Positions 4,551 to 22,487 of a stretch of 22,487 nucleotides of DNA are shown piece after piece. A program made the translations under genes and the position numbers. Location: positions 1 to 22,487 of IMG/VR virus record IMGVR_UViG_3300031951_001298; one strand, 5' to 3'. The stretch's first letter is position 1. Every line of letters begins with the position of its first letter. This stretch comes from a virus. The notes under the pieces are model-generated. The model had not been told where the DNA came from and did not search any database. It saw only the letters and a program-made list of their open reading frames with translations.

Positions 4551-6335
4551 TTAATTTTTAATTGGTGTCATAAATGCTGCTGCTTGTGCACCAGCAGTAG
4601 CAACAAATCGCCCTTCTCCGTAGGCAACCGCACTCCAATAGCTGCTGTTGGATATATTAGTAGAAGTCCATGTAATGCCATCGTCACTATGTAGTGCTGA
4701 AGTTGAACCAGTGGCAACAGCAACAAATCGCCCTTCTCCGTAGGTTACTGAAATCCAAGATCTACCTATAGGTAGAGTAACAGAAGTCCAAGTAATTCCA
4801 TCGTCACTATATGCTGCTGAAGTTGAACCAGCGCCTCCAGCAACAACAACAAATCTTCCTTTTCCGTACGTGACTGAATACCAAACTGGACTACTACTTG
4901 GCAAAGTAGAAGCAGCCCATGTTATTCCATCGTCACTATATGCTGCTGAAGTTGTCTGAGCAGCAACAGCAACGAATCTTCCCTTTCCATACGTGACCGA
5001 TTCCCAGTTAGAACTACTTGGTAGAACAGCAGCGGTCCATGTTATTCCATCGTCGCTATATGCTGCTGAAGTTGAACCAGTGGCAACAGCAACAAATCGC
5101 CCTTCTCCGTATGTTACTGATTGCCAAGAGGCGTTGCTAGGCATAGTCATAGAAGTCCAAGTAATCCCATCATTACTATATGATGCTGAAGTTGAACCAG
5201 TGGCAACAGCAACAAATCGCCCTTCTCCGTATGTTACTGAAACCCAATTGGCAAAACTAGGTAAAGTAGAAGAGGTCCATGTTACACCATCATCACTATA
5301 TGCTGCTGATGTACCGACATAAGCAACAGCAACAAATCGCCCTTCTCCGTATGTTACTGAATTCCAATTATGACTAATAGGCATAGTAGCAGCAGTCCAA
5401 GTAGTTGGAAATGTAGATAGATTTGTATATGCTGCGGTATTTGAATTAATCCCGCCAACAGCAACAAATCTTCCTTCTCCATATGTAACAGATCTCCAAC
5501 TAATATTGCTTGGTAAAGTTGCAGCAGTCCATGTTATACCATCATCACTATATGCTGCTGAAGCTGAACCAGAGGCAATAGCAACAAATCGTCCTTCTCC
5601 GTAGGTGACTGAGTCCCAACTGAGAACACTAGGCATGGTAGCATTGATCCAAGTAATCCCATCATCACTATATGCTGCTTTATTTGAGCCAGAGGCAATA
5701 GCAACAAATCTTCCTTCTCCGTAGGTTACTGATTCCCAATCACTGTTGCTAGGTAGAGTAGTATCGATCCACGTAATCCCATCATCACTATATGCTGCTT
5801 TATTTGAAAAATCACGAACAGCAACAAATCTCCCTTCGCCGTATGTTACACTCTTCCAACTCCCAGTGCTAGGTAAGGTAACATCGATCCACGTCACACC
5901 ATCATCACTATATGTTGCTTTATTTGAAGTTGCGGTAAAACTATAAACAACAGCAACAAATCTTCCTCTTCCGTATGTTATTGATCCAAAATCGCCACTA
6001 CTGAACATAGTAGCAGCAGTCCATGTTATACCGTCATCACTATATGCTACTATATTTGAACCAGAGCTAATAGCAACAAATCGTCCTTCTCCGTAGGTGA
6101 CTGACTGCCAATTGGCAACGCTAGGCATGGTAGCATTGATCCAAGTAATCCCATCATCACTATATGCTGCTTTATTTGAACTAGTAATTGAAATAGCAAC
6201 AAATCGTCCTTCGCCATACGCAACCGACCGCCAATTGGCAACGCTAGGCATAGTAGCAGCAGTCCATCCTAATGAGCCACTTTGTGTGCTTTGCTGTTTT
6301 GTTGATAATAATAGTTTTTTTGATGTGAAGCTCAT
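4551..6335 (-). CDS. Tail-associated double beta-propeller with Asp-box repeats
   Basis: This 594-residue protein is almost entirely 14 repeats of 38-44 residues, each opening with SVTYGEGRFVAV or a close variant. Twelve carry an Asp-box (SDDGITW, SDDGVTW or SNDGITW), the turn motif of BNR/sialidase-type propellers. The Asp-box is missing only in repeat 7 (replaced by TNLSTFPTTW) and in the truncated repeat 14, which divides the array into 7 + 7. Two seven-bladed propellers are the natural reading. The first 22 residues (Ser/Thr/Gln/Lys rich) may attach it to the virion. Its start overlaps the stop of the tail chaperone by four bases (ATGA), so it is probably a receptor-binding or glycan-binding tip protein. 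No catalytic sialidase residues are evident. Repeats are also highly similar as DNA. Confidence 0.75.
   Translation of the reverse strand: MSFTSKKLLLSTKQQSTQSGSLGWTAATMPSVANWRSVAYGEGRFVAISITSSNKAAYSDDGITWINATMPSVANWQSVTYGEGRFVAISSGSNIVAYSDDGITWTAATMFSSGDFGSITYGRGRFVAVVYSFTATSNKATYSDDGVTWIDVTLPSTGSWKSVTYGEGRFVAVRDFSNKAAYSDDGITWIDTTLPSNSDWESVTYGEGRFVAIASGSNKAAYSDDGITWINATMPSVLSWDSVTYGEGRFVAIASGSASAAYSDDGITWTAATLPSNISWRSVTYGEGRFVAVGGINSNTAAYTNLSTFPTTWTAATMPISHNWNSVTYGEGRFVAVAYVGTSAAYSDDGVTWTSSTLPSFANWVSVTYGEGRFVAVATGSTSASYSNDGITWTSMTMPSNASWQSVTYGEGRFVAVATGSTSAAYSDDGITWTAAVLPSSSNWESVTYGKGRFVAVAAQTTSAAYSDDGITWAASTLPSSSPVWYSVTYGKGRFVVVAGGAGSTSAAYSDDGITWTSVTLPIGRSWISVTYGEGRFVAVATGSTSALHSDDGITWTSTNISNSSYWSAVAYGEGRFVATAGAQAAAFMTPIKN
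4611..6230 (-). repeat. Coding tandem repeats of about 115-130 bases, 14 copies
   Basis: The core reading on the plus strand as caacaaatcgcccttctccg (with minor variants) recurs 14 times, each encoding GEGRFVA. Near-identical neighbouring units (for example around 5080, 5210 and 5330) suggest recent duplication or gene conversion. Such arrays can gain or lose blades by recombination. Confidence 0.85.
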
Positions 6336-13728: not shown

Positions 13729-14661
13729 TTAGATAAGATTATGCTCTATTAAATATTGAAAATCAAAAGTTTTAGCTTGAGCTACATTCAAAGCTAGTAT
13801 TTTTGGTATAAGCTCAGAAGACTCTTTTCTTCCTCCAGAAAAACAGAACTGAATATTTTCCGGAAAGTTTTTGCATACCTCTCTGAATCTGTGAAATATG
13901 AAATCCGTAGAAGCTTTTGCAAATCTACCAGTTCTAGAATAAGAAAATGATAAAAATTTATTAATATCACATTCTGTAACTACTACAATATACCCATTAG
14001 CTTCTCTAGCTCTTTCTACTTCTCTATTAAATCTATCAAAACCAGATGACAACGTAGAAACCAAATCATTTAATGATTTTCTCTCAACGGCTAACAGCTT
14101 GTCGCAAGAATAATCTCCAAATTCAAGTTTTTCGTTAATTATTTCATAATTTTTTAGCTTAATAGGCTTCTGCTCCCTTGTATCTACCGTTATGTTTTTT
14201 TGATAAATAAAATTGAAATTTAATTCATTTTTATTGTACGAATAACGCTTTTTTAAACCAGTAGATTTAATAAAATTATCCAGATCAGGAAAAAAAAATT
14301 CATATGTCTTAATAGATGGAAAATAAGACACGGTTCTCATCTCGGAAGATGAAGGAAAGTAGCATACACTTTTTAATTTTGAATGATCTATAATTTTATT
14401 CAATAAGAAATTTTTTGCTAATCCGTTTTTTTCAAGTTTAAGCCAAGATAGCATGTTTTTTTTATTAACAAAATCTGTTAATAAATATTGTTCAAAACTT
14501 TTGAATTCGATCGGCTCCTTAGTAAGAAAATCTCTCTTATTTAAATTCCATTTTAAGTATTGATCTATTTTTAAATCATGATCAACTTTTACATGTTTTA
14601 TAAACTTATCCTTATCGGAACAGGAATACGAACATCCAGACTCTTTACAAGAAAATTTCAT
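13729..14661 (-). CDS. Zinc-finger and ERCC4-type nuclease fusion
   Basis: This 310-residue protein starts with a C2H2 zinc finger: C5-x4-C10-x12-H23-x4-H28. The middle (about 30-150) is not recognised. The C-terminal part (about 155-300) is an ERCC4/XPF-Mus81-type nuclease domain, with ITVDTREQKP (D160), EFGDYSC (D183) and AVERKSLNDLVSTLSSG (E193-R194-K195 of the catalytic ERK motif). This domain cuts branched or flap DNA in eukaryotes and archaea, and occurs singly in some phages. Between a possible small terminase and TerL it may resolve branched replication intermediates ahead of packaging. That role is inferred from position only. The catalytic residues appear complete, so it is probably active. 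Confidence 0.8.
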   Translation of the reverse strand: MKFSCKESGCSYSCSDKDKFIKHVKVDHDLKIDQYLKWNLNKRDFLTKEPIEFKSFEQYLLTDFVNKKNMLSWLKLEKNGLAKNFLLNKIIDHSKLKSVCYFPSSSEMRTVSYFPSIKTYEFFFPDLDNFIKSTGLKKRYSYNKNELNFNFIYQKNITVDTREQKPIKLKNYEIINEKLEFGDYSCDKLLAVERKSLNDLVSTLSSGFDRFNREVERAREANGYIVVVTECDINKFLSFSYSRTGRFAKASTDFIFHRFREVCKNFPENIQFCFSGGRKESSELIPKILALNVAQAKTFDFQYLIEHNLI

Positions 14662-14666
14662 ATAAA

Positions 14667-15830
14667 TTATGTATTGAAAATTTCTTTTGGATCAATTCCT
14701 CTAATGATCGCCTTAAATTCATCAACCGACGATAGCTTTTCTACCTCTTCTTTTAATGCTTCTCTTTGCCTTTCAGCTAAAGCAATCATTCTTTCCCTAT
14801 TTTCTTCTTGCTTCCAAGCATAAACTAAATTTAAAATCGAAGCGTTCTCATTTCTTTTTTCTTCTATTCTTTTTGAGCGATTAACTGTTAAACTTTTGTA
14901 TAGCTTATCTTGTCTAGATATGCATTGATTATATTCAGTCTGAGCATTATTAATAGCTTCATTCAGGCTCATGCTTATTTTTCTACCATCAGATTCAGAA
15001 GCCATGTCGTCGAGCGACATTCTTAAATACTCTATTCTTCTCTGAATATCTGCTGCAATAACAACTTCATTTGATAAAGTAATAAATTGATCTATCTCTT
15101 CCTGCGTTAAATCATCTTTGTCATGAGTATATCTTATAAAAGCGTCTTCAAACAGCTCTCTATCTTCTTGTCTTGAGTAGTTATTTATCTGGTAAAGAAA
15201 TCTAAATATCTTAAGATATGAAAGCAAGGATTCTACGCATTTTATTTGCGCGCGTTTTAAATTTTCTTCTTTCCATCCGTAATTTAAATACTTATTTATC
15301 CTAGCAATAACCTGTACCATTGTAGCGGGAGGTCTATATTGTTCAGAAGGAACCTCACTTCTCTTAAAATTCGAAGACGGCTCGTAATTTATTGTTTCAA
15401 ACTCTCCAGAGTCACTAACTCTTAAGCTTTTTTTATCATCTTGATCTTGTAAATACTTAACATATTCATTAACAGCTCGGTGTTCCAAATGAAGCGCGCT
15501 AATTGTTTGATCATTCAATAAATTTCTTGTAAAAATAAGAGTAGTAAATCCATCTTTTTTATATTCCTGCCTAATTCTCTCCTTTTGTTCTTCAGAAAGA
15601 GCGTAGGGTTCCATTTTTTTTATAACATTGACTTTTACTTTACCAATCTGAAATTCAGATATATATTCTTTTATAGCCCTACCCTCTTTACTTCTTCCAT
15701 CTATTAGGGAATTATTAAAAACCTTCTGAGTCAATTCAGAAAGGTTAGGAGTTGCTCCATCTGCGAACGCAGCCCTAATCAAATCTTCCTGTTCTTTAGA
15801 AAGGATAATTTTTTCTTCTTCTGAATTCAT
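14667..15830 (-). CDS. Helical DNA-binding-like protein, possible small terminase
   Basis: This 387-residue protein has two related N-terminal units: LSKEQEDLIRAAFADGATPN (about 10-30, continuing to GRAIKEYIS) and LSEEQKERIRQEYKKDGFTT (about 78-98, continuing to RAVNEYVKYL). Each reads like a helix-turn-helix repeat of the kind used to bind DNA. The rest is helical and highly charged, with a probable coiled coil at about 270-370. It shares the A of a TAATG with the sigma-like gene upstream and is followed five bases later by the nuclease gene, with TerL next. The location suggests the DNA-recognition subunit of the terminase, but it is much longer than most small terminases. A transcription co-factor for the neighbouring sigma-like protein is an alternative. 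Confidence 0.5.
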   Translation of the reverse strand: MNSEEEKIILSKEQEDLIRAAFADGATPNLSELTQKVFNNSLIDGRSKEGRAIKEYISEFQIGKVKVNVIKKMEPYALSEEQKERIRQEYKKDGFTTLIFTRNLLNDQTISALHLEHRAVNEYVKYLQDQDDKKSLRVSDSGEFETINYEPSSNFKRSEVPSEQYRPPATMVQVIARINKYLNYGWKEENLKRAQIKCVESLLSYLKIFRFLYQINNYSRQEDRELFEDAFIRYTHDKDDLTQEEIDQFITLSNEVVIAADIQRRIEYLRMSLDDMASESDGRKISMSLNEAINNAQTEYNQCISRQDKLYKSLTVNRSKRIEEKRNENASILNLVYAWKQEENRERMIALAERQREALKEEVEKLSSVDEFKAIIRGIDPKEIFNT

Positions 15831-16549
15831 TAAGATTCCAATAATATTTGTTTAGCTATTTTATAAATTTTATTTTTAATCTTCTTTATTTGCTTATAGC
15901 CAGGTGATCTATTTTTTTCGCTAGTTTTATAGCCCATTACTTTTGCAGCTTCTATTTCATCTAAATTTTCAACATATAATAAGCTATAAACTCTCCAATC
16001 TATTGCCGACAGTTTGCCCTTCATGGCTTCATGAAAAATAGCGGTTTTAGAATCATAATCTATAAAAGAATAACTATCCTTAATGTCAATAACTTGCTGC
16101 TTCTGTTCTTTTGAAGAGTCGTTTTGACTATATGCATCTAAACTAACAGGCATTTTTACTAAATATGCATCTTTTTTACCTAGCTCCCACTTGGAATAGT
16201 CTTGGCAGTCCGAAGATTGCAATCCGTAAAGAGCACACAAGTTACCGCCTTGATTGTATTTACATTGCAGACAGGGTTTGGAGAAAGAAGAATAATTATT
16301 TCTTACCAAATTTGTCATTTGATTAGTAATAATTGTATTAATCCATGGTCTAAGAGCCCTTTTGTTATCCCATTGATCCCATTTATTAAATATATGCAAT
16401 CTTATTTTCTGACAAACGTCATCATAATCCATCCAAGCTATTGAATTCAGTCTCCATCTTGATTTTCTCTTTTGAAGTTCGGCATCTATAATATAGATGC
16501 AGTCAGAAAACTCTGGTTTATTGTCGCTAAATTTACTTTCATCCAGCAT
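15830..16549 (-). CDS. Sigma-70-like factor with Cys4 insert
   Basis: This 239-residue protein has a region-2-like segment (about 38-85: DYDDVCQKIRLHIFNKWDQW, then RPWINTIITNQMTNLVRNN), matching the sigma-70 pattern for -10 recognition and core binding. Immediately after it is a C-x2-C-x8-C-x9-C cluster (CLQCKYNQGGNLC...C), a probable zinc-binding insert seen in some phage sigma-like proteins. Near the C-terminus, LSAIDWRVYSLLYVENLDEI and EAAKVMGYKT look like a region-4 helix-turn-helix. It would redirect host RNA polymerase to phage promoters, and the GTGTA motifs are my candidate targets. It is one base after the zinc-ribbon gene and overlaps the next gene by one base. Confidence 0.75.
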   Translation of the reverse strand: MLDESKFSDNKPEFSDCIYIIDAELQKRKSRWRLNSIAWMDYDDVCQKIRLHIFNKWDQWDNKRALRPWINTIITNQMTNLVRNNYSSFSKPCLQCKYNQGGNLCALYGLQSSDCQDYSKWELGKKDAYLVKMPVSLDAYSQNDSSKEQKQQVIDIKDSYSFIDYDSKTAIFHEAMKGKLSAIDWRVYSLLYVENLDEIEAAKVMGYKTSEKNRSPGYKQIKKIKNKIYKIAKQILLES

Positions 16550-19479: not shown

Positions 19480-19482
19480 TTA

Positions 19483-19493
19483 AGTTTATACAC
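19483..19493 (-). promoter_or_regulatory. GTGTA-type putative promoter at leaderless distance, FkbM gene
   Basis: GTGTATAAACT begins 14 bases before the ATG at 19479 with nine bases between GTGTA and ATG, identical to the spacing at the spanin gene and the gene at 9066. Confidence 0.45.
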
Positions 19494-19582
19494 CAAAATG
19501 CGCATGCTGGAAAATAACGGCCCAGGCCGAAACGGCTCGAAACGAAAAACCACTCCTATTATTTCTAATTTTTTGAAAAATA

Positions 19583-19590
19583 GGGGGGGG
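19583..19590. repeat. G8 homopolymer tract, first copy
   Basis: Eight consecutive G on the plus strand preceded by TTTTTTGAAAAATA and followed by TACCCC, so that it can also fold. The second copy at 19837-19844 has the same length and a nearly identical left flank (TTTCGAAAAATT). Confidence 0.7.
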
Positions 19591-19766
19591 TACCCCACGC
19601 CCCTACGTATTCTACGAATAAAAAATAATAACAAGAAACATAAAGAAAAGAATAAAAAAGAATAGGTCAATCATAATAAGATTATATAAGATATTACATT
19701 AACAAAGATTAGATAGATTGTTTTTTATTTAATTAAATTGAAATAAAATAAATAATTAGGTTTTTA

Positions 19767-19805
19767 ATGGGGGAGACTGAATTTTAAGACCCCCATGCGC
19801 TTTTT
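19767..19805 (+). terminator. Possible terminator hairpin before the small-gene island
   Basis: ATGGGGG (19767-19773) pairs with CCCCCAT (19790-19796) around a 16-base loop and is followed, after GCGC, by five T. It would stop rightward transcription entering the island, though no rightward gene is seen just upstream. It could also be a regulatory hairpin. Confidence 0.35.
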
Positions 19806-19836
19806 GGGCCCGTGCCTATATGAATTTCGAAAAATT

Positions 19837-19844
19837 GGGGGGGG
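19837..19844. repeat. G8 homopolymer tract, second copy
   Basis: Eight consecutive G about 60 bases upstream of the -35 box of the first island promoter, flanked on the left by TTTCGAAAAATT as in the first copy. Confidence 0.7.
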
Positions 19845-19898
19845 TGTCAAGGGAAATCTTTCGATTGCCTGAAAATAAAAATTCATTTTTATTCAAAA

Positions 19899-19939
19899 AA
19901 TCCCTTGTCATTCGGGAAATAATTTTATACATTAAGACC
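19899..19939 (+). promoter_or_regulatory. Sigma-70-like leaderless promoter, unit 1
   Basis: TTGTCA, a 17-base spacer, TACATT, then six bases (AAGACC) and the ATG at 19940. If transcription starts seven bases after the -10 box, the first base is the A of the ATG. An A-rich ATTCAAAAAATCC precedes the -35 box, as it does in the other units. Confidence 0.65.
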
Positions 19940-20137
19940 ATGCAAAACGAAAACAACCTAAACGAAATCAGCCAAGAAGTGCTGTCCACTATCCGCGTCA
20001 CTCTCTGCATGACCCTGCGCCAGATGTATCCTCACCGCAGGGTGTTTCGGAAAGAGATCCGCGAGAAGATCGAGGCTCTGCGTGTCATGCGTAATAGCTT
20101 GGCTCTCTATCATCAACCATTTATCTGGGCTAAATAA
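19940..20137 (+). CDS. Small protein of unknown function, 65 residues
   Basis: It starts MQNENNLNEISQEVLSTIRV and ends YHQPFIWAK. The middle is basic and helical (MYPHRRVFRKEIREKIEALR), which suggests nucleic-acid or protein binding. There is no membrane segment. Codon choice (CTG, CGC, ATC, GTG) is quite unlike the AT-rich genes to the left. The start is fixed by the promoter geometry; there is no Shine-Dalgarno site. It is the first gene of a two-gene unit. I do not recognise a family. Confidence 0.65.
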   Translation: MQNENNLNEISQEVLSTIRVTLCMTLRQMYPHRRVFRKEIREKIEALRVMRNSLALYHQPFIWAK

Positions 20138-20154
20138 TTAGCCCTCAATAACTT

Positions 20155-20292
20155 ATGAATAAACGCACACATAGCAGGAAAACAAAAAAACAAATAAGCG
20201 AACAAGAGGAATTGCGTCGTAAACTGCAGATGCAGAGGGGTTTCCTATCACTATACTACCACTGGTTAGCTAACGGCAAGCCCGCTATCTAA
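20155..20292 (+). CDS. Small protein of unknown function, 45 residues
   Basis: ATG at 20155, 17 bases after the previous stop, reads MNKRTHSRKTKKQISEQEEL and ends SLYYHWLANGKPAI at TAA 20290. It has a basic N-terminus, a Gln/Glu/Arg helix and an aromatic end (YYHW). It is probably translated from the same transcript as the 65-residue protein. No family is recognised. Support comes from sensible composition, tight spacing and codon choice matching its neighbours. Confidence 0.55.
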   Translation: MNKRTHSRKTKKQISEQEELRRKLQMQRGFLSLYYHWLANGKPAI

Positions 20293-20300
20293 CTAACACT

Positions 20301-20460
20301 GCAAACCCTTGAGCATCAACTACTTAGGGGCCCGGCGGGCCCGTAAGTGCTTACTATGCAACGACTTACGCTTGGCACGAATCCTGCTAGGCAAGGGCCT
20401 GGCACGCATCCTGCTACAACAGGGCCTGGCATGCCGATTGCTTACAGCCCTCGAAAAAAA
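20301..20460 (+). repeat. Composite repeat cluster A: palindromes, GC hairpin, three TGGCAY motifs
   Basis: A worn palindrome (TTGAgcaTCAA, centre 20314) is followed by the hairpin GGGCCC-GGC-GGGCCC (20328-20342). A 29-base palindrome follows, with arms CGTAAGT/ACTTACG (20342-20370, centre 20356). The two palindrome centres are 42 bases apart. Three motifs follow at an exact 27-base period: TGGCACGAATCCTGCT (20373-20388), TGGCACGCATCCTGCT (20400-20415) and TGGCATGCCGATTGCT (20427-20442). These resemble the sigma-54 consensus TGGCACG-N4-TTGCW. An A-rich tract leads to the promoter of unit 2. Confidence 0.75.
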
Positions 20461-20484
20461 ATTCAAAAAAAATAAAAATATCCC

Positions 20485-20518
20485 TTGCTCTCTGTCTGAT
20501 CTGTGGTATCTTAAAAAC
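20485..20518 (+). promoter_or_regulatory. Sigma-70-like leaderless promoter, unit 2
   Basis: TTGCTC (20485-20490), a 16-base spacer, TATCTT (20507-20512), six bases (AAAAAC), then the ATG at 20519. The -10 to ATG distance is identical to the other three units. Confidence 0.6.
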
Positions 20519-20845
20519 ATGACAACGAACAACACCAACCTCACCAACAACGAAATCCCAGCCTCCACCGCTCTCGTGCGGTTCACCTACGCAAAGCCTC
20601 TCAAGGCGGGAGGTGTGGAAGTCACCCAGCGCATCATCCGCATGGGGCGTGAGGTTATCCTCCCCCTTCTCCGTGGCGGTAGCTCATGGGGCAAGTCCAA
20701 CACCCAACACCGCTTTGTTGCTCTCAACCGCAAAGACAAGGAGGCTCGCGAATACCTGCAAGGGGCTGAAGAGCAGGAGGATGGACGCCTTCAAATCAAA
20801 CGCTTCGACTTCTCCTACATCGACAACCTCGAAGTTGTCGCCTAA
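20519..20845 (+). CDS. Small protein of unknown function, 108 residues
   Basis: From ATG 20519 it reads MTTNNTNLTNNEIPASTALV, then a conserved-looking, probably beta-rich core with VRFTYAKPLKAGGVEVTQRI, LPLLRGGSSWGKS and HRFVALNRKDKEAREYLQG. It ends FDFSYIDNLEVVA. There is no membrane segment or signal peptide. The frame is open upstream to 20309 through cluster A, but that part is clearly repeat sequence, and the promoter geometry fixes the start. It is the best formed protein of the island and shares a unit with the 60-residue protein, 29 bases downstream. No family recognised. Confidence 0.7.
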   Translation: MTTNNTNLTNNEIPASTALVRFTYAKPLKAGGVEVTQRIIRMGREVILPLLRGGSSWGKSNTQHRFVALNRKDKEAREYLQGAEEQEDGRLQIKRFDFSYIDNLEVVA

Positions 20846-20874
20846 TTTACTCAACCTCAACCAAATACAAAAAT

Positions 20875-21057
20875 ATGTCTAAAAAACACTTCATCGCAAT
20901 CGCCGAAGCAATCAAATTACAATACGCGCAAGCCACTACTACAAAAGAGCTTAGGGTCGTCGAAAACATAGTGACAGACTTGTGCGCCACCTTCAAAAAC
21001 GACAATAACCTATTCGACGCCAAGCGTTTCCGCGAGGCTTGTGGAATAGAAAAGTAA
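20875..21057 (+). CDS. Small KHFIAIA-type protein, 60 residues
   Basis: It reads MSKKHFIAIAEAIKLQYAQA and ends FDAKRFREACGIEK. An opening of the type KHFIA(I/L)A(E/D)AI and a C-terminal DLC...F...RF motif is a pattern I recall in very small proteins of phages and plasmids with no known function. Helical, soluble, with two Cys. It starts 29 bases after the 108-residue gene and should be on the same transcript. Its presence is the only link of the island to other mobile elements that I can see. Confidence 0.65.
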   Translation: MSKKHFIAIAEAIKLQYAQATTTKELRVVENIVTDLCATFKNDNNLFDAKRFREACGIEK

Positions 21058-21061
21058 AACA

Positions 21062-21197
21062 AGCCGTAAGTTGCTGAAAATCAACGACTTACGGGCCCGA
21101 CAGGCCCCTAAGTGCTTGATATGCAACGATTTACAACTTGGCACGCATTCTGAATGTCTAAAATAGAGGCCTGGCACGACACCTGCTAAAGCCTCGA
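21062..21197 (+). repeat. Composite repeat cluster B
   Basis: Same plan as clusters A and C. A 29-base palindrome with arms CGTAAGT/ACTTACG (21065-21093, centre 21079) is followed by a GC hairpin GGGCC...GGCCC (21093-21107) and a second, imperfect palindrome (about 21107-21135, centre 21121). The centres are 42 bases apart. Then come TGGCACGCATTCTGAA (21139-21154) and TGGCACGACACCTGCT (21172-21187), 33 bases apart. An A-rich tract follows. Confidence 0.75.
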
Positions 21198-21227
21198 AAA
21201 AAAATCAATTAAATTCAAAAAAATTCC

Positions 21228-21261
21228 TTGTCTAAAATCATTCCTCTGATACATTCAATTC
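21228..21261 (+). promoter_or_regulatory. Sigma-70-like leaderless promoter, unit 3
   Basis: TTGTCT (21228-21233), a 16-base spacer, TACATT (21250-21255), six bases (CAATTC), then the ATG at 21262. Confidence 0.6.
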
Positions 21262-21363
21262 ATGGACATGACTGACAAAATCGCCTTCGGAGTTTTCTTC
21301 ATCTGGTTTCTCGCGATCGCTGTTTTACTAAAAATTCACCTTGAAACAAAAGACAACAACTGA
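21262..21363 (+). CDS. Single-span membrane peptide, 33 residues
   Basis: It reads MDMTDKIAFGVFFIWFLAIA and then VLLKIHLETKDNN: a polar start, one membrane span (about residues 8-24) and a polar tail. It is the first gene of a four-gene unit, with the leaderless promoter immediately upstream. The next gene starts 15 bases after the stop. Function unknown; peptides of this size can modulate membrane proteins or act as toxins or exclusion factors. Confidence 0.55.
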   Translation: MDMTDKIAFGVFFIWFLAIAVLLKIHLETKDNN

Positions 21364-21378
21364 TATAAAATAAAAATC

Positions 21379-21708
21379 ATGAACAATACAACTGCCACAC
21401 TCGACGCCGTGAACAACGCTCGACATTTCATCAAGGTTGCCTCTACTCACTACCGCAACAGCACAGGAACCCGTGACTATGGCACATTCCAGATTCACGC
21501 ATCTACTAATCTATTCCCTACCTTTGGGCGTGACTACTTCGGCAACGCTGATACAAAAGCGCGCCTTGCACAAAGCAACAAAGAGCTTCTTGCCTCTATC
21601 TGTGGTTTATATGGCATTGGCGGTCAATCTCTTACTTGCCAAGATGGGATCAAGCAAGAGGATGGTTCTTGGATATTCAATGGCTCTTATGATTGCTGGA
21701 GCGACTAA
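21379..21708 (+). CDS. Protein of unknown function, 109 residues
   Basis: It reads MNNTTATLDAVNNARHFIKV, continues with a Thr/Gly/Tyr-rich part (STGTRDYGTFQIHASTNLF) and ends QEDGSWIFNGSYDCWSD. It contains three Cys and several Trp/Tyr near the C-terminus. It is soluble and has no signal. It sits inside a unit made otherwise of tiny membrane peptides. Codon choice matches the island. No family recognised. Confidence 0.65.
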   Translation: MNNTTATLDAVNNARHFIKVASTHYRNSTGTRDYGTFQIHASTNLFPTFGRDYFGNADTKARLAQSNKELLASICGLYGIGGQSLTCQDGIKQEDGSWIFNGSYDCWSD

Positions 21709-21712
21709 TAAT

Positions 21713-21790
21713 ATGATACCAACACTAATCTTTGCCTTGTTAATGCTAACCCTTTTCGCAATAAGCGATTACATCACCTATAAAAAATAA
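21713..21790 (+). CDS. Membrane peptide, 25 residues
   Basis: ATG 21713 reads MIPTLIFALLMLTLFAISDY and then ITYKK. It is nearly all membrane span with a basic end. The start is four bases after the previous stop and the next ATG four bases after its own stop, which argues for co-translation. Too short for family recognition. The frame is open further upstream, but that part overlaps the 109-residue gene and is not preferred. Confidence 0.45.
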   Translation: MIPTLIFALLMLTLFAISDYITYKK

Positions 21791-21794
21791 TAAT

Positions 21795-21905
21795 ATGAGC
21801 CTCATCGAAAAACTTTTCTACCCTATCTTCTTGATTACCTTTACCTTGGCAATGTTGCATCTGTTCTTTGCCTTCGCTGACTATGTAGGCAAAAACGGGC
21901 TGTAA
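21795..21905 (+). CDS. Membrane peptide, 36 residues
   Basis: It reads MSLIEKLFYPIFLITFTLAM, then LHLFFAFADYVGKNGL. One membrane span covers about residues 8-28 with an amphipathic start. It is the last gene of unit 3, directly followed by cluster C. With the 33- and 25-residue peptides it makes three single-span peptides in one unit. Confidence 0.5.
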   Translation: MSLIEKLFYPIFLITFTLAMLHLFFAFADYVGKNGL

Positions 21906-21909
21906 AAAA

Positions 21910-22050
21910 TCCGTAAGTGGTTGAATATCAGCGACTTACGGGCCCGTCGGGCCTGCAAGTCATTGGAAATCAGCTACTTATGCAGAAAAGTTGGCATGGA
22001 TTCTGAACGCGTGAAACTATGGCCTGGCACGCCGATTGCTTACGGCGCCG
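21910..22050 (+). repeat. Composite repeat cluster C
   Basis: A 29-base palindrome with arms CGTAAGT/ACTTACG (21912-21940, centre 21926) is followed by hairpin GGGCCC-GTC-GGGCC (21940-21953). A second palindrome follows (about 21954-21982, centre 21968), its centre 42 bases from the first. Then come TGGCATGGATTCTGAA (21992-22007) and TGGCACGCCGATTGCT (22025-22040), 33 bases apart. The latter matches the sigma-54 consensus at every conserved position. Confidence 0.75.
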
Positions 22051-22071
22051 AATAAAAATTAAAAAAATATC

Positions 22072-22106
22072 TGGACATTTTAGACTGAATCGCATACCTT
22101 AAAACC
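22072..22106 (+). promoter_or_regulatory. Sigma-70-like leaderless promoter, unit 4
   Basis: TGGACA (22072-22077), a 17-base spacer, TACCTT (22095-22100), six bases (AAAACC), then the ATG at 22107. Confidence 0.6.
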
Positions 22107-22286
22107 ATGAAAGAGAACATCACCCTGAATGTGACAGCGGAACGCGCAGAAGAATACGCGGAGAACTTCCGCAAGTATCAGAACAACGAATGGGGTTGCC
22201 AGCAATGGGCTGACTACTGCACTATGCTTCTCGGAGAACTCATGCAGGAAAACAAGGACATTTTCATTCGGTTGAAAAATCGCTAA
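22107..22286 (+). CDS. Small acidic protein of unknown function, 59 residues
   Basis: It reads MKENITLNVTAERAEEYAEN and ends NKDIFIRLKNR. It is a mostly helical, soluble protein with two Cys and a central Trp-rich segment (NEWGCQQWADYC). First gene of unit 4, with its start fixed by the promoter. No family recognised. Confidence 0.65.
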   Translation: MKENITLNVTAERAEEYAENFRKYQNNEWGCQQWADYCTMLLGELMQENKDIFIRLKNR

Positions 22287-22299
22287 AATAAAAACTGCC

Positions 22300-22455
22300 A
22301 TGAAAAATAAAATCCTCCTCGCCCTTCACGACAATGGACAAAAATTCATCTATCGCGCACACGCCGCAGAACGGAATGGCAATCGTGTTTGCGCCTTTGT
22401 CAACTTTATACTTTTTCATTTGTGCTATAATATCCGCGACATTTTGAGAAAATAA
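22300..22455 (+). CDS. Small protein of unknown function, 51 residues
   Basis: ATG 22300, 13 bases after the previous stop, reads MKNKILLALHDNGQKFIYRA and ends FHLCYNIRDILRK. The C-terminal third is hydrophobic (VCAFVNFILFHLCY) and may touch a membrane. An overlapping frame on the other strand (22264-22476) exists, but its position over the 59-residue gene makes it less likely. The remaining 32 bases of the window hold nothing recognisable. Confidence 0.45.
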   Translation: MKNKILLALHDNGQKFIYRAHAAERNGNRVCAFVNFILFHLCYNIRDILRK

Positions 22456-22487
22456 TCCTTGCAATAAAATACTCAACCACTAAAATC

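Follow-up and report, generated by a model that had tools for sequence, protein, structure and literature searches.

A putative early-gene region of an uncultured tailed phage punctuated by promoter cassettes with a double-dyad separator and sigma-54-type boxes

Introduction

What organizes a cluster of very small phage genes that resemble no known family? The question is raised by one end of the virus contig IMGVR_UViG_3300031951_001298 (22,487 bases, analyzed whole and referred to here as the window), where ten plus-strand frames, g1 to g10, occupy positions 19940–22455 in units of two, two, four, and two. A first-pass annotation, made from the sequence alone, had recognized this layout and the lower size limit of 25 residues; the longest frame (g6) has 109 residues rather than the 108 it gave. 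It also described the combination of tiny membrane peptides, soluble proteins of no known kind, and a regulatory module shared between the units as an unfamiliar pattern. In arrangement and gene exchange, however, that module resembles the promoter-early stem-loop (PeSL) cassettes, mobile regulatory elements of T4-type phages that are reportedly the subject of studies by Arbiol in 2010 and Comeau in 2014, while it also carries elements that are new. The present analysis suggests, with moderate confidence, that the island belongs to the early accessory-gene region of an uncultured tailed phage and is punctuated by PeSL-like cassettes whose separator is of another kind and to which sigma-54-type boxes are added. 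The island itself is real, but its supposed end at 22455 is not, because relatives carry further units; the end of the contig falls within the island, which would be the start, and thus one end, of a larger region.

Results

Organization of the cassette

Short genes stand in units of one to four with an apparently mobile cassette between them, comprising a rigid separator, in about half of the cases boxes facing the gene, an A-rich spacer, and a sigma-70-like promoter usually ending 6 nt before the ATG. The shared repeat was indeed found ahead of units 2, 3, and 4. Its first part is a 67-bp separator, located at 20302–20368, 21067–21133, and 21914–21980 (separators 1 to 3), in which two 25-bp dyads of the pattern TAA-N4-TTG-N5-CAA-N4-TTA flank a 17-nt GC core. 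There follow, on the plus strand, three sigma-54-type boxes at 20373, 20400, and 20427 (20373–20441; 27 bp apart) and two in each of the other cassettes, 33 bp apart, at 21139 and 21172 (21139–21186) and at 21992 and 22025 (21992–22039), the first of each pair ending in TGA and the second in TGC. The plus-strand promoters of units 2 to 4 lie at 20485–20512 (TTGCTC, 16 nt, TATCTT), 21228–21255 (TTGTCT, 16 nt, TACATT), and 22072–22100 (TGGACA, 17 nt, TACCTT), which places them 43, 41, and 32 bp past the last box. The unit 1 promoter (19905–19933, plus strand; TTGTCA, 17 nt, TACATT) has no separator or box that we could find upstream. In all four units the first ATG lies 6 nt past the −10-like hexamer, a geometry that would suit the leaderless transcription claimed for them.

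A scan of viral contigs with g3 returned seven loci (L006 to L012). L006 is identical to the window in every compared protein, L007 is a close relative (about 94% nucleotide identity over g2–g8), and L008 and L009, the latter from a 134-kb contig, share their island matches, with equal identities. From a subsequent scan with g6 came L112, L114, L117, L118, and L119, which were treated as a held-out set that is partly dependent, L112 being 91% identical to L011 over 668 nt.

Sigma-54-type boxes

The boxes have the consensus TGGCAYG-N4-YTGC and are oriented toward the genes of their unit. TGGCAYG-N5-TGC occurs five times exactly and seven times with at most one mismatch, where 1.1 are expected and the maximum of 100 shuffles was four. 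Across eight records, which overlap (the window is one of them and recurs as G001, and the island part of G003 is in agreement with that of G004), 36 of the 38 exact matches lie in the island and face its genes, and the reversed pattern yielded none. Neighboring boxes within 60 bp of each other (n = 34) are 33 bp apart in 23 cases, 27 in four, and 34 in three; copies distal to the promoter end in TGA in 23/34 and proximal copies in TGC in 28/35.

The proximal boxes have both the sequence and the spacing of a −24/−12 sigma-54 promoter. We scored them with a matrix built from 42 E. coli sites mapped by chromatin immunoprecipitation sequencing (PMC4591121). Median scores were 19.2 for the 35 proximal boxes, 16.9 for the 34 distal boxes, and 15.6 for the E. 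coli sites, each left out in turn, with 31 of the 35 proximal boxes at or above the E. coli median; these scores are partly built in, the boxes having been gathered with a loose TGG..TG pattern. When the matrix was run along the 134-kb relative, 29 windows exceeded the lower-quartile score of 13.0; the 7-kb boxed stretch accounts for 17, all on its plus strand, and the other 12 lie elsewhere. Separately, L112 carries two such boxes at 5019 and 5131 of its minus strand, opposite to the strand of its g6 unit and with no promoter by our rule.

Promoters and helical phasing

The promoters have the form TTGnnn or TGGACA, 16–17 nt, a TAnnnT hexamer, often exactly 6 nt, and ATG, with an A-rich spacer upstream, and they recur at a regular place in the element even though a plain scan shows no excess. 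Under a rule that favors this distance, 18 of 28 units have their −10 hexamer exactly 6 nt ahead of the ATG; without that bonus, 10 of 19 boxed rows do.

The distance from the last box to the −35 is 30–33, 40–43, or 50–51 bp in all 28 units with a promoter by our rule. When L007 was left out as too near the window, 25/25 units remained in these classes, with R = 0.75 at 10.5 bp, a value that none of 20,000 uniform draws equaled; the period that fits best is closer to 10 bp than to 10.5. For the box-to-ATG distance in the 18 units of leaderless geometry, a measure less dependent on promoter choice, 3 of 20,000 draws were as high. Seven of the eight held-out distances fall in the classes (33 and 42 in L112; 32, 32, 40, 41, and 41 in L117), and the eighth, 61, comes from a TGGTAT box of L117 that fits the pattern more loosely. 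From phage to phage, orthologous units fall in different classes (43, 42, 50, and 33 for the g3 unit; 51, 50, and 42 for the GP88 unit), and slippage by 10-nt units is not an easy explanation, because the g3 spacers of the window and L012 differ throughout, as judged by eye.

Such spacing, in whole helical turns between site and promoter, is that of class I activators, and the strongest alternative is built on it: the boxes, as asymmetric direct repeats, would be operators for an activator of phage or host origin that contacts RNA polymerase from about −74, −84, and −93, on the model of CRP at class I promoters or, more loosely, of phi29 p4. If transcription starts 7 nt after the −10 hexamer, the box centers come near the CRP positions of −72.5, −82.5, and −92.5 (PMC5352689), and the frequent 33-bp pairing and the A-rich spacer also speak for this explanation, as does the finding that several separator units without boxes have TTGACA or TTGACC as their −35 (by eye). 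An automatic comparison, however, found no weaker −35 in boxed units (mean match 4.74 of 6 in 19 boxed units versus 3.91 in 35 unboxed ones, an impure set with many wrong-strand picks), the proximal boxes fit the sigma-54 consensus both at its informative positions and in the substitutions tolerated, and AraC-type regulators, the one regulator family searched for, were absent from 9/9 virus records. We therefore consider an activator operator unlikely, if a serious contender.

The opposite alternative takes the boxes as ordinary −24/−12 promoters of leadered mRNAs, with the sigma-70-like promoter secondary and the dyads as enhancer sites. It draws on the matrix scores and the orientation, and the 65–84 nt from box end to start codon in the 18 leaderless-geometry units sit well beside the average of 71 nt reported for PEP-CTERM sigma-54 motifs of Proteobacteria (PMC1569441). 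Yet it leaves the phasing to the downstream promoter unexplained, 24 of 52 separators have no following box, and one separator lies between convergent stops (see below), so that we regard it as rather improbable. Box sequence points to sigma-54 and phasing to an accessory factor, and the two are joined in the explanation that we prefer, a phased sigma-54 or look-alike.

The double-dyad separator

In six phages the core is exactly 17 nt and both arm gaps are exactly 5 in 39 of 42 dyad pairs, under a pattern that permitted other lengths. Core length is 17 in L117 and 25 in L112, and in contigs without recognized kinship it is 28 (L064, L065, and L070), 30 (L068), or mostly 18 (L103, 5/6); a helical-turn rule for the core (17/18 versus 28) was dropped on account of the L112 value. 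The late parts of two relatives (L052–L056 and L062) contain three dyads and no pairs, and in the 134-kb relative the GC core is confined to 3.9–23.7 kb. A box lies within 75 nt on one side of 28 of the 52 separators in six phages, which indicates that separator and box are separable parts. From 10.9 kb onward in the 134-kb relative, none of nine separators is boxed and seven are then followed by promoter-like sequence on the side shown (by eye). One separator of that phage (14651–14717) sits between two convergent open reading frames whose stops, at 14646 and 14722, leave 4 nt on each side, which is where a two-way terminator would be placed.

Folded as RNA, six separators gave z-scores of −1.9 to −7.1. 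An RNA stem was nevertheless rejected as the main constraint, given that pairing at the variable arm positions is no better than after shuffling (b–c, 0.454 versus 0.538; a–d, 0.444 versus 0.436). Sites for IHF were also considered, on the strength of the arm sequence CAA-N4-TTA, and were set aside because two convergent sites within 25 bp would overlap.

Separators also occur apart from the island's relatives. A first composite scan of viral contigs gave 20 stretches, 16 of them boxless, and a dyad arm is paired with a sigma-54-type box in contigs L064 (229 kb), L044, L063, and L065. It is possible, and we advance it tentatively, that several apparently unrelated environmental phages share this cis-regulatory grammar, in which host sigma-54 or a look-alike would be a phased accessory factor on leaderless early promoters of host type. 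Two further elements were noted in passing: in L064 and L065 a second palindrome (CCTTACGAAAATGTAAGG and variants) lies right after a TTGGCAC box and ahead of a TATAAT-type promoter, and L029, L031, L033, L036, and L040 share a ATCAACGACTTAC..TTGGCACGATTCT element, with wider spacing before TGCTAT, that is possibly a related regulatory element.

Single dyads were found in 43 scattered stretches of bacterial genomes, among them a dozen in Fibrobacter metagenome-assembled genomes (MAGs) and six in one Verrucomicrobiae chromosome. That chromosome has 10 scattered dyads versus none of the reversed pattern, and one Fibrobacter MAG has eight versus three. These counts would suit host-type repeats, resembling repetitive extragenic palindromes (REP) or bacterial interspersed mosaic elements (BIME), that invaded the phage and serve it no function. 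In two MAGs, however, all dyads lie on one short contig each (8/8 and 2/2), one of which encodes an endolysin, and the separators are regularly placed between stop and promoter. The host-genome scans covered single dyads and the exact arm-plus-box pattern, the latter with no match in the species genomes. We judge an invasion of this kind very unlikely.

Gene exchange and spread of the region

Between the window and L007, separator 3 is 97% identical, its boxes 86%, and its promoter 93%; the gene behind that cassette (g9) is replaced (48%), and g10 resumes at 80%. The incoming L007 gene resembles the first gene of a different L011 unit. Module boundaries thus coincide with gene exchange in one clear replacement, and unit contents are reordered in other relatives: a search for genomes with the same module order, which the first-pass annotation had proposed, found the same kinds of small genes in shuffled order. 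The stretch looks like a shuffled early-gene region and not a foreign insertion. From the similarity of the cassettes we propose that units recombine and that the phage could thereby swap small early proteins without losing their expression.

A recently acquired foreign cassette, the second of two readings offered at first, would account for the contrast in GC and codon usage, which is genuine: the ten frames have GC of 0.32–0.56 and third-position GC (GC3) of 0.42–0.70, versus GC3 of 0.18–0.28 in 16 measured minus-strand genes. Five further phages carry the region, however (L007, L009, L010, L011, and L012), and PhoH adjoins it in four of them, as in the window, L009 having other neighbors; moreover, the contrast spans tens of kilobases and fits the phage tRNAs. 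Acquisition therefore seems highly improbable. Its companion, an early-expressed phage locus, fares better, as a reading that would be supported by the sigma-70-type promoters, by codon use that is the reverse of that in the structural-side genes, and by phage tRNAs for the codons that those genes prefer.

In the 134-kb relative, GC is 0.42 and 0.39 across the first 32 kb versus 0.33–0.35 across the next 100 kb. When 1,839 codons of island-region reading frames were compared with 10,014 of large late-side ones (early and late being classes inferred from gene kind), island and late fractions were 0.60 and 0.06 for Arg CGC, 0.15 and 0.62 for AGA, 0.07 and 0.35 for Leu TTA, 0.08 and 0.35 for Ile ATA, and 0.04 and 0.18 for Ser AGT. 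The same phage encodes tRNAs Arg-TCT, Leu-TAA, and Ser-ACT, for AGA, TTA, and AGT, and relative G006 encodes Ile-TAT, for ATA. Most simply, early genes would be adapted to the tRNAs of the host and late genes to those of the phage. Shine–Dalgarno-like motifs are scarce in either class (2/19 and 2/18). Besides its several tRNAs, the 134-kb relative has a transfer-messenger RNA gene with tag peptide EAEYIFNNADEFLAGFEEESCALAA (L054:5898–6311, minus strand). A GP88 (PF17338) gene at L009:8504–9175 lies within the boxed region, and its homologues are placed close to the beginning of several pelagiphage records, a position that weakly favors the early-gene reading.

Genes of the island and their neighborhood

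All ten frames lie on the plus strand, and nine, which recur in at least one non-identical relative, are thereby supported as genes. In unit 1, g1 (19940–20137; 65 aa) is 72% identical in L007 and 48% in L010, and g2 (20155–20292; 45 aa) is 93% identical in L007 and 48% in L011. Unit 2 holds g3 (20519–20845; 108 aa), which is 73–97% identical in L007 and L009–L012 and has a weaker second copy in the same region of L009–L012, and g4 (20875–21057; 60 aa), a small protein with distant relatives in other phages. In unit 3, g5 (21262–21363; 33 aa; 88% in L007, 59% in L011) has a hydrophobic stretch and g8 (21795–21905; 36 aa; 100% in L007, 45–53% in L009–L012) is hydrophobic, both by eye; g6 (21379–21708; 109 aa) has a conserved C-terminal GGQSLTC..DG..NGSYDCWSD. 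The exception to recurrence is g7 (21713–21790), a doubtful 25-residue frame that is not conserved: in L007 its nucleotide identity is 24%, with gaps, while flanking g6 and g8 stand at 95% and 100%. Unit 4 consists of g9 (22107–22286; 59 aa), for which L007 has a different gene behind the same cassette, and g10 (22300–22455; 51 aa), 78% identical in L007, the sole non-identical relative with this gene. Against L007, synonymous and nonsynonymous-type codon changes number 6:3 in g3, 10:2 in g4, and 13:2 in g6, and are thus mostly synonymous; they are not so in g1 (8:18), g2 (1:3), g5 (1:4), or g10 (12:11), and g8 is unchanged.

Profile searches, as the first-pass annotation had recommended, gave no sign of ordinary known-gene fragments. 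The ten proteins have no Pfam match above the cut-off, no PADLOC match (0/10), no convincing PHROG match, and hence no usable family match or, by Pfam and PADLOC, similarity to known defense or anti-defense families; RNA families gave no match at the gathering threshold. Among named phages, the island DNA has no match, g3 and g6 have none, and g4 has one, in a Brevundimonas phage; a relative's island DNA has a single short matching stretch there, within GP88. For g3, no solved structure was usably matched by sequence, and its predicted model, of moderate quality (mean predicted local distance difference test score 68, mostly strands), has no fold match reaching E 0.001 among solved structures or viral models and was given no weight. 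Chance frames with chance repeats might be suspected from g7, many small alternative frames, and the lack of excess in plain consensus scans, but the conservation of most frames in diverged relatives, the box counts, and the box distances leave this barely credible.

The minus-strand genes of the window include a terminase, an endolysin, an ERCC4 nuclease, an FkbM methyltransferase, a sigma-70 region 2 protein, and a PhoH relative, so labeled from its matches. Terminase and PhoH proteins are distant from named phages (22–31% among the matches listed), the terminase weakly matching Microcystis, Bacillus, Mammaliicoccus, and Clostridioides phages (22–28% among 20 listed). The sigma-70 region 2 protein (15830–16549, minus strand), 59–63% identical in L010, L011, and L012, is a candidate late sigma factor. 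The gene at 4551–6335 (minus strand) encodes a highly repetitive protein with YSDDGITWT..YGEGRFVAV-type repeats, by position of the tail-protein kind. A 21-nt direct repeat (19571–19591 and 19825–19845) that finishes with eight G and then T lies in the divergent gap separating the island from the minus-strand genes and may mark an origin or a promoter-switch region.

Discussion

Judged by position and statistics, the separator would be a terminator and insulator, the promoter a leaderless start, and the box a phased protein site. In this model, the separator would end transcription of the preceding unit and insulate the next, and at the promoter host RNA polymerase with its main sigma factor would start a leaderless mRNA. 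The boxes would be occupied either by host sigma-54, with or without polymerase, or by some protein that shares its specificity. From one fixed side of the helix, this factor would help or gate the host-type promoter downstream, and it may also start a second, leadered transcript.

Several observations weigh against this model. A plain sigma-54 promoter does not predict phasing, a spacing of 33 bp between boxes would leave little room for two holoenzymes, and most distal boxes (23/34) carry A instead of C at −12. No rpoN was found in 10 phage records searched, and a sigma-54 activator domain scored above the cut-off solely in G008, a remoter contig and not a cassette relative, with matches in G003 and G004 below the cut-off only. 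A consensus scan of 19480–22487 returned five promoter-like and three terminator-like sites versus 5.5 and 4.1 in shuffles, recovered only unit 1's among the four unit promoters, and found no terminator at the separators. The separators are followed by no T-run. Across 49 repeats, some of those from G007 entering twice, the variable letters of the arms do not covary as base pairs, which favors a protein-read DNA element, although the RNA also folds. Neither an exact box nor a separator pair is present in the two distant g6 relatives L118 and L119. As for phasing, 7 of 35 box clusters had no promoter by our rule and were dropped (four upstream of a separator, one inside a gene, and two in L012), and a promoter was present in 8 of 20 held-out clusters, the other 12 being dropped. 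The spacer-shuffle control is weak, with 660 promoter picks from 7,500 shuffles, 30% of them within the distance classes, and at least one small replicate had every pick in the classes. Finally, the counts overstate independence because the units share descent.

The closest known system is the PeSL cassette, between copies of which genes are exchanged (PMC4503421). Both combine a promoter with a palindromic element resembling a terminator, both repeat this combination among the small early genes of a rapidly changing region, and in both genes are swapped between cassettes. In contrast to PeSL, the element here is a fixed 67-bp double dyad and not a simple stem-loop, sigma-54-type boxes lie on a fixed helical face, and starts are leaderless by geometry; moreover, no T4-type marker was present among the window proteins tested. 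For the archaeal virus HGTV-1, PeSL-like motifs are described in one arm of the genome, where a conserved promoter with an inverted repeat precedes most genes, but these are of the archaeal TATA type and that description mentions no further boxes (PMC3950731). Bacterial sigma-54 (RpoN) promoters are matched in −24/−12 sequence, spacing, orientation, and distance to the gene; they differ in that the boxes here are tandem, phased to a sigma-70-like promoter, and mostly altered at −12 in distal copies, in phages without a recognizable sigma-54 gene. At class I CRP promoters, too, the site for the regulator lies upstream of a host-type promoter and keeps to one face of the helix, whereas phi29 p4, a phage regulator of an early promoter region, is described as reading inverted repeats (PMC3100819), unlike the asymmetric direct-repeat site considered here. 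The putative sigma-54-like protein reported for Pectobacterium phage Q19 (PMC7693777) is a separate matter from the boxes.

A narrow search of open-license papers found no description of sigma-54-linked early expression in phages. If sigma-54 reads the boxes, phage early expression would be tied to a host regulator of stress and nutrients, and, should the shared grammar be real, it would amount to a sigma-54-linked early regulon in phages, reading the nitrogen or stress state of the host at infection. Phased activation predicts that a half-turn insertion between box and promoter abolishes expression and that a full turn keeps it. In uncultured phages, the separator offers an easy way to spot such regions. 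A list of obscure peptides becomes a testable regulatory system, one that points to a way in which accessory early genes may be retained and traded by phages outside the T4 group.

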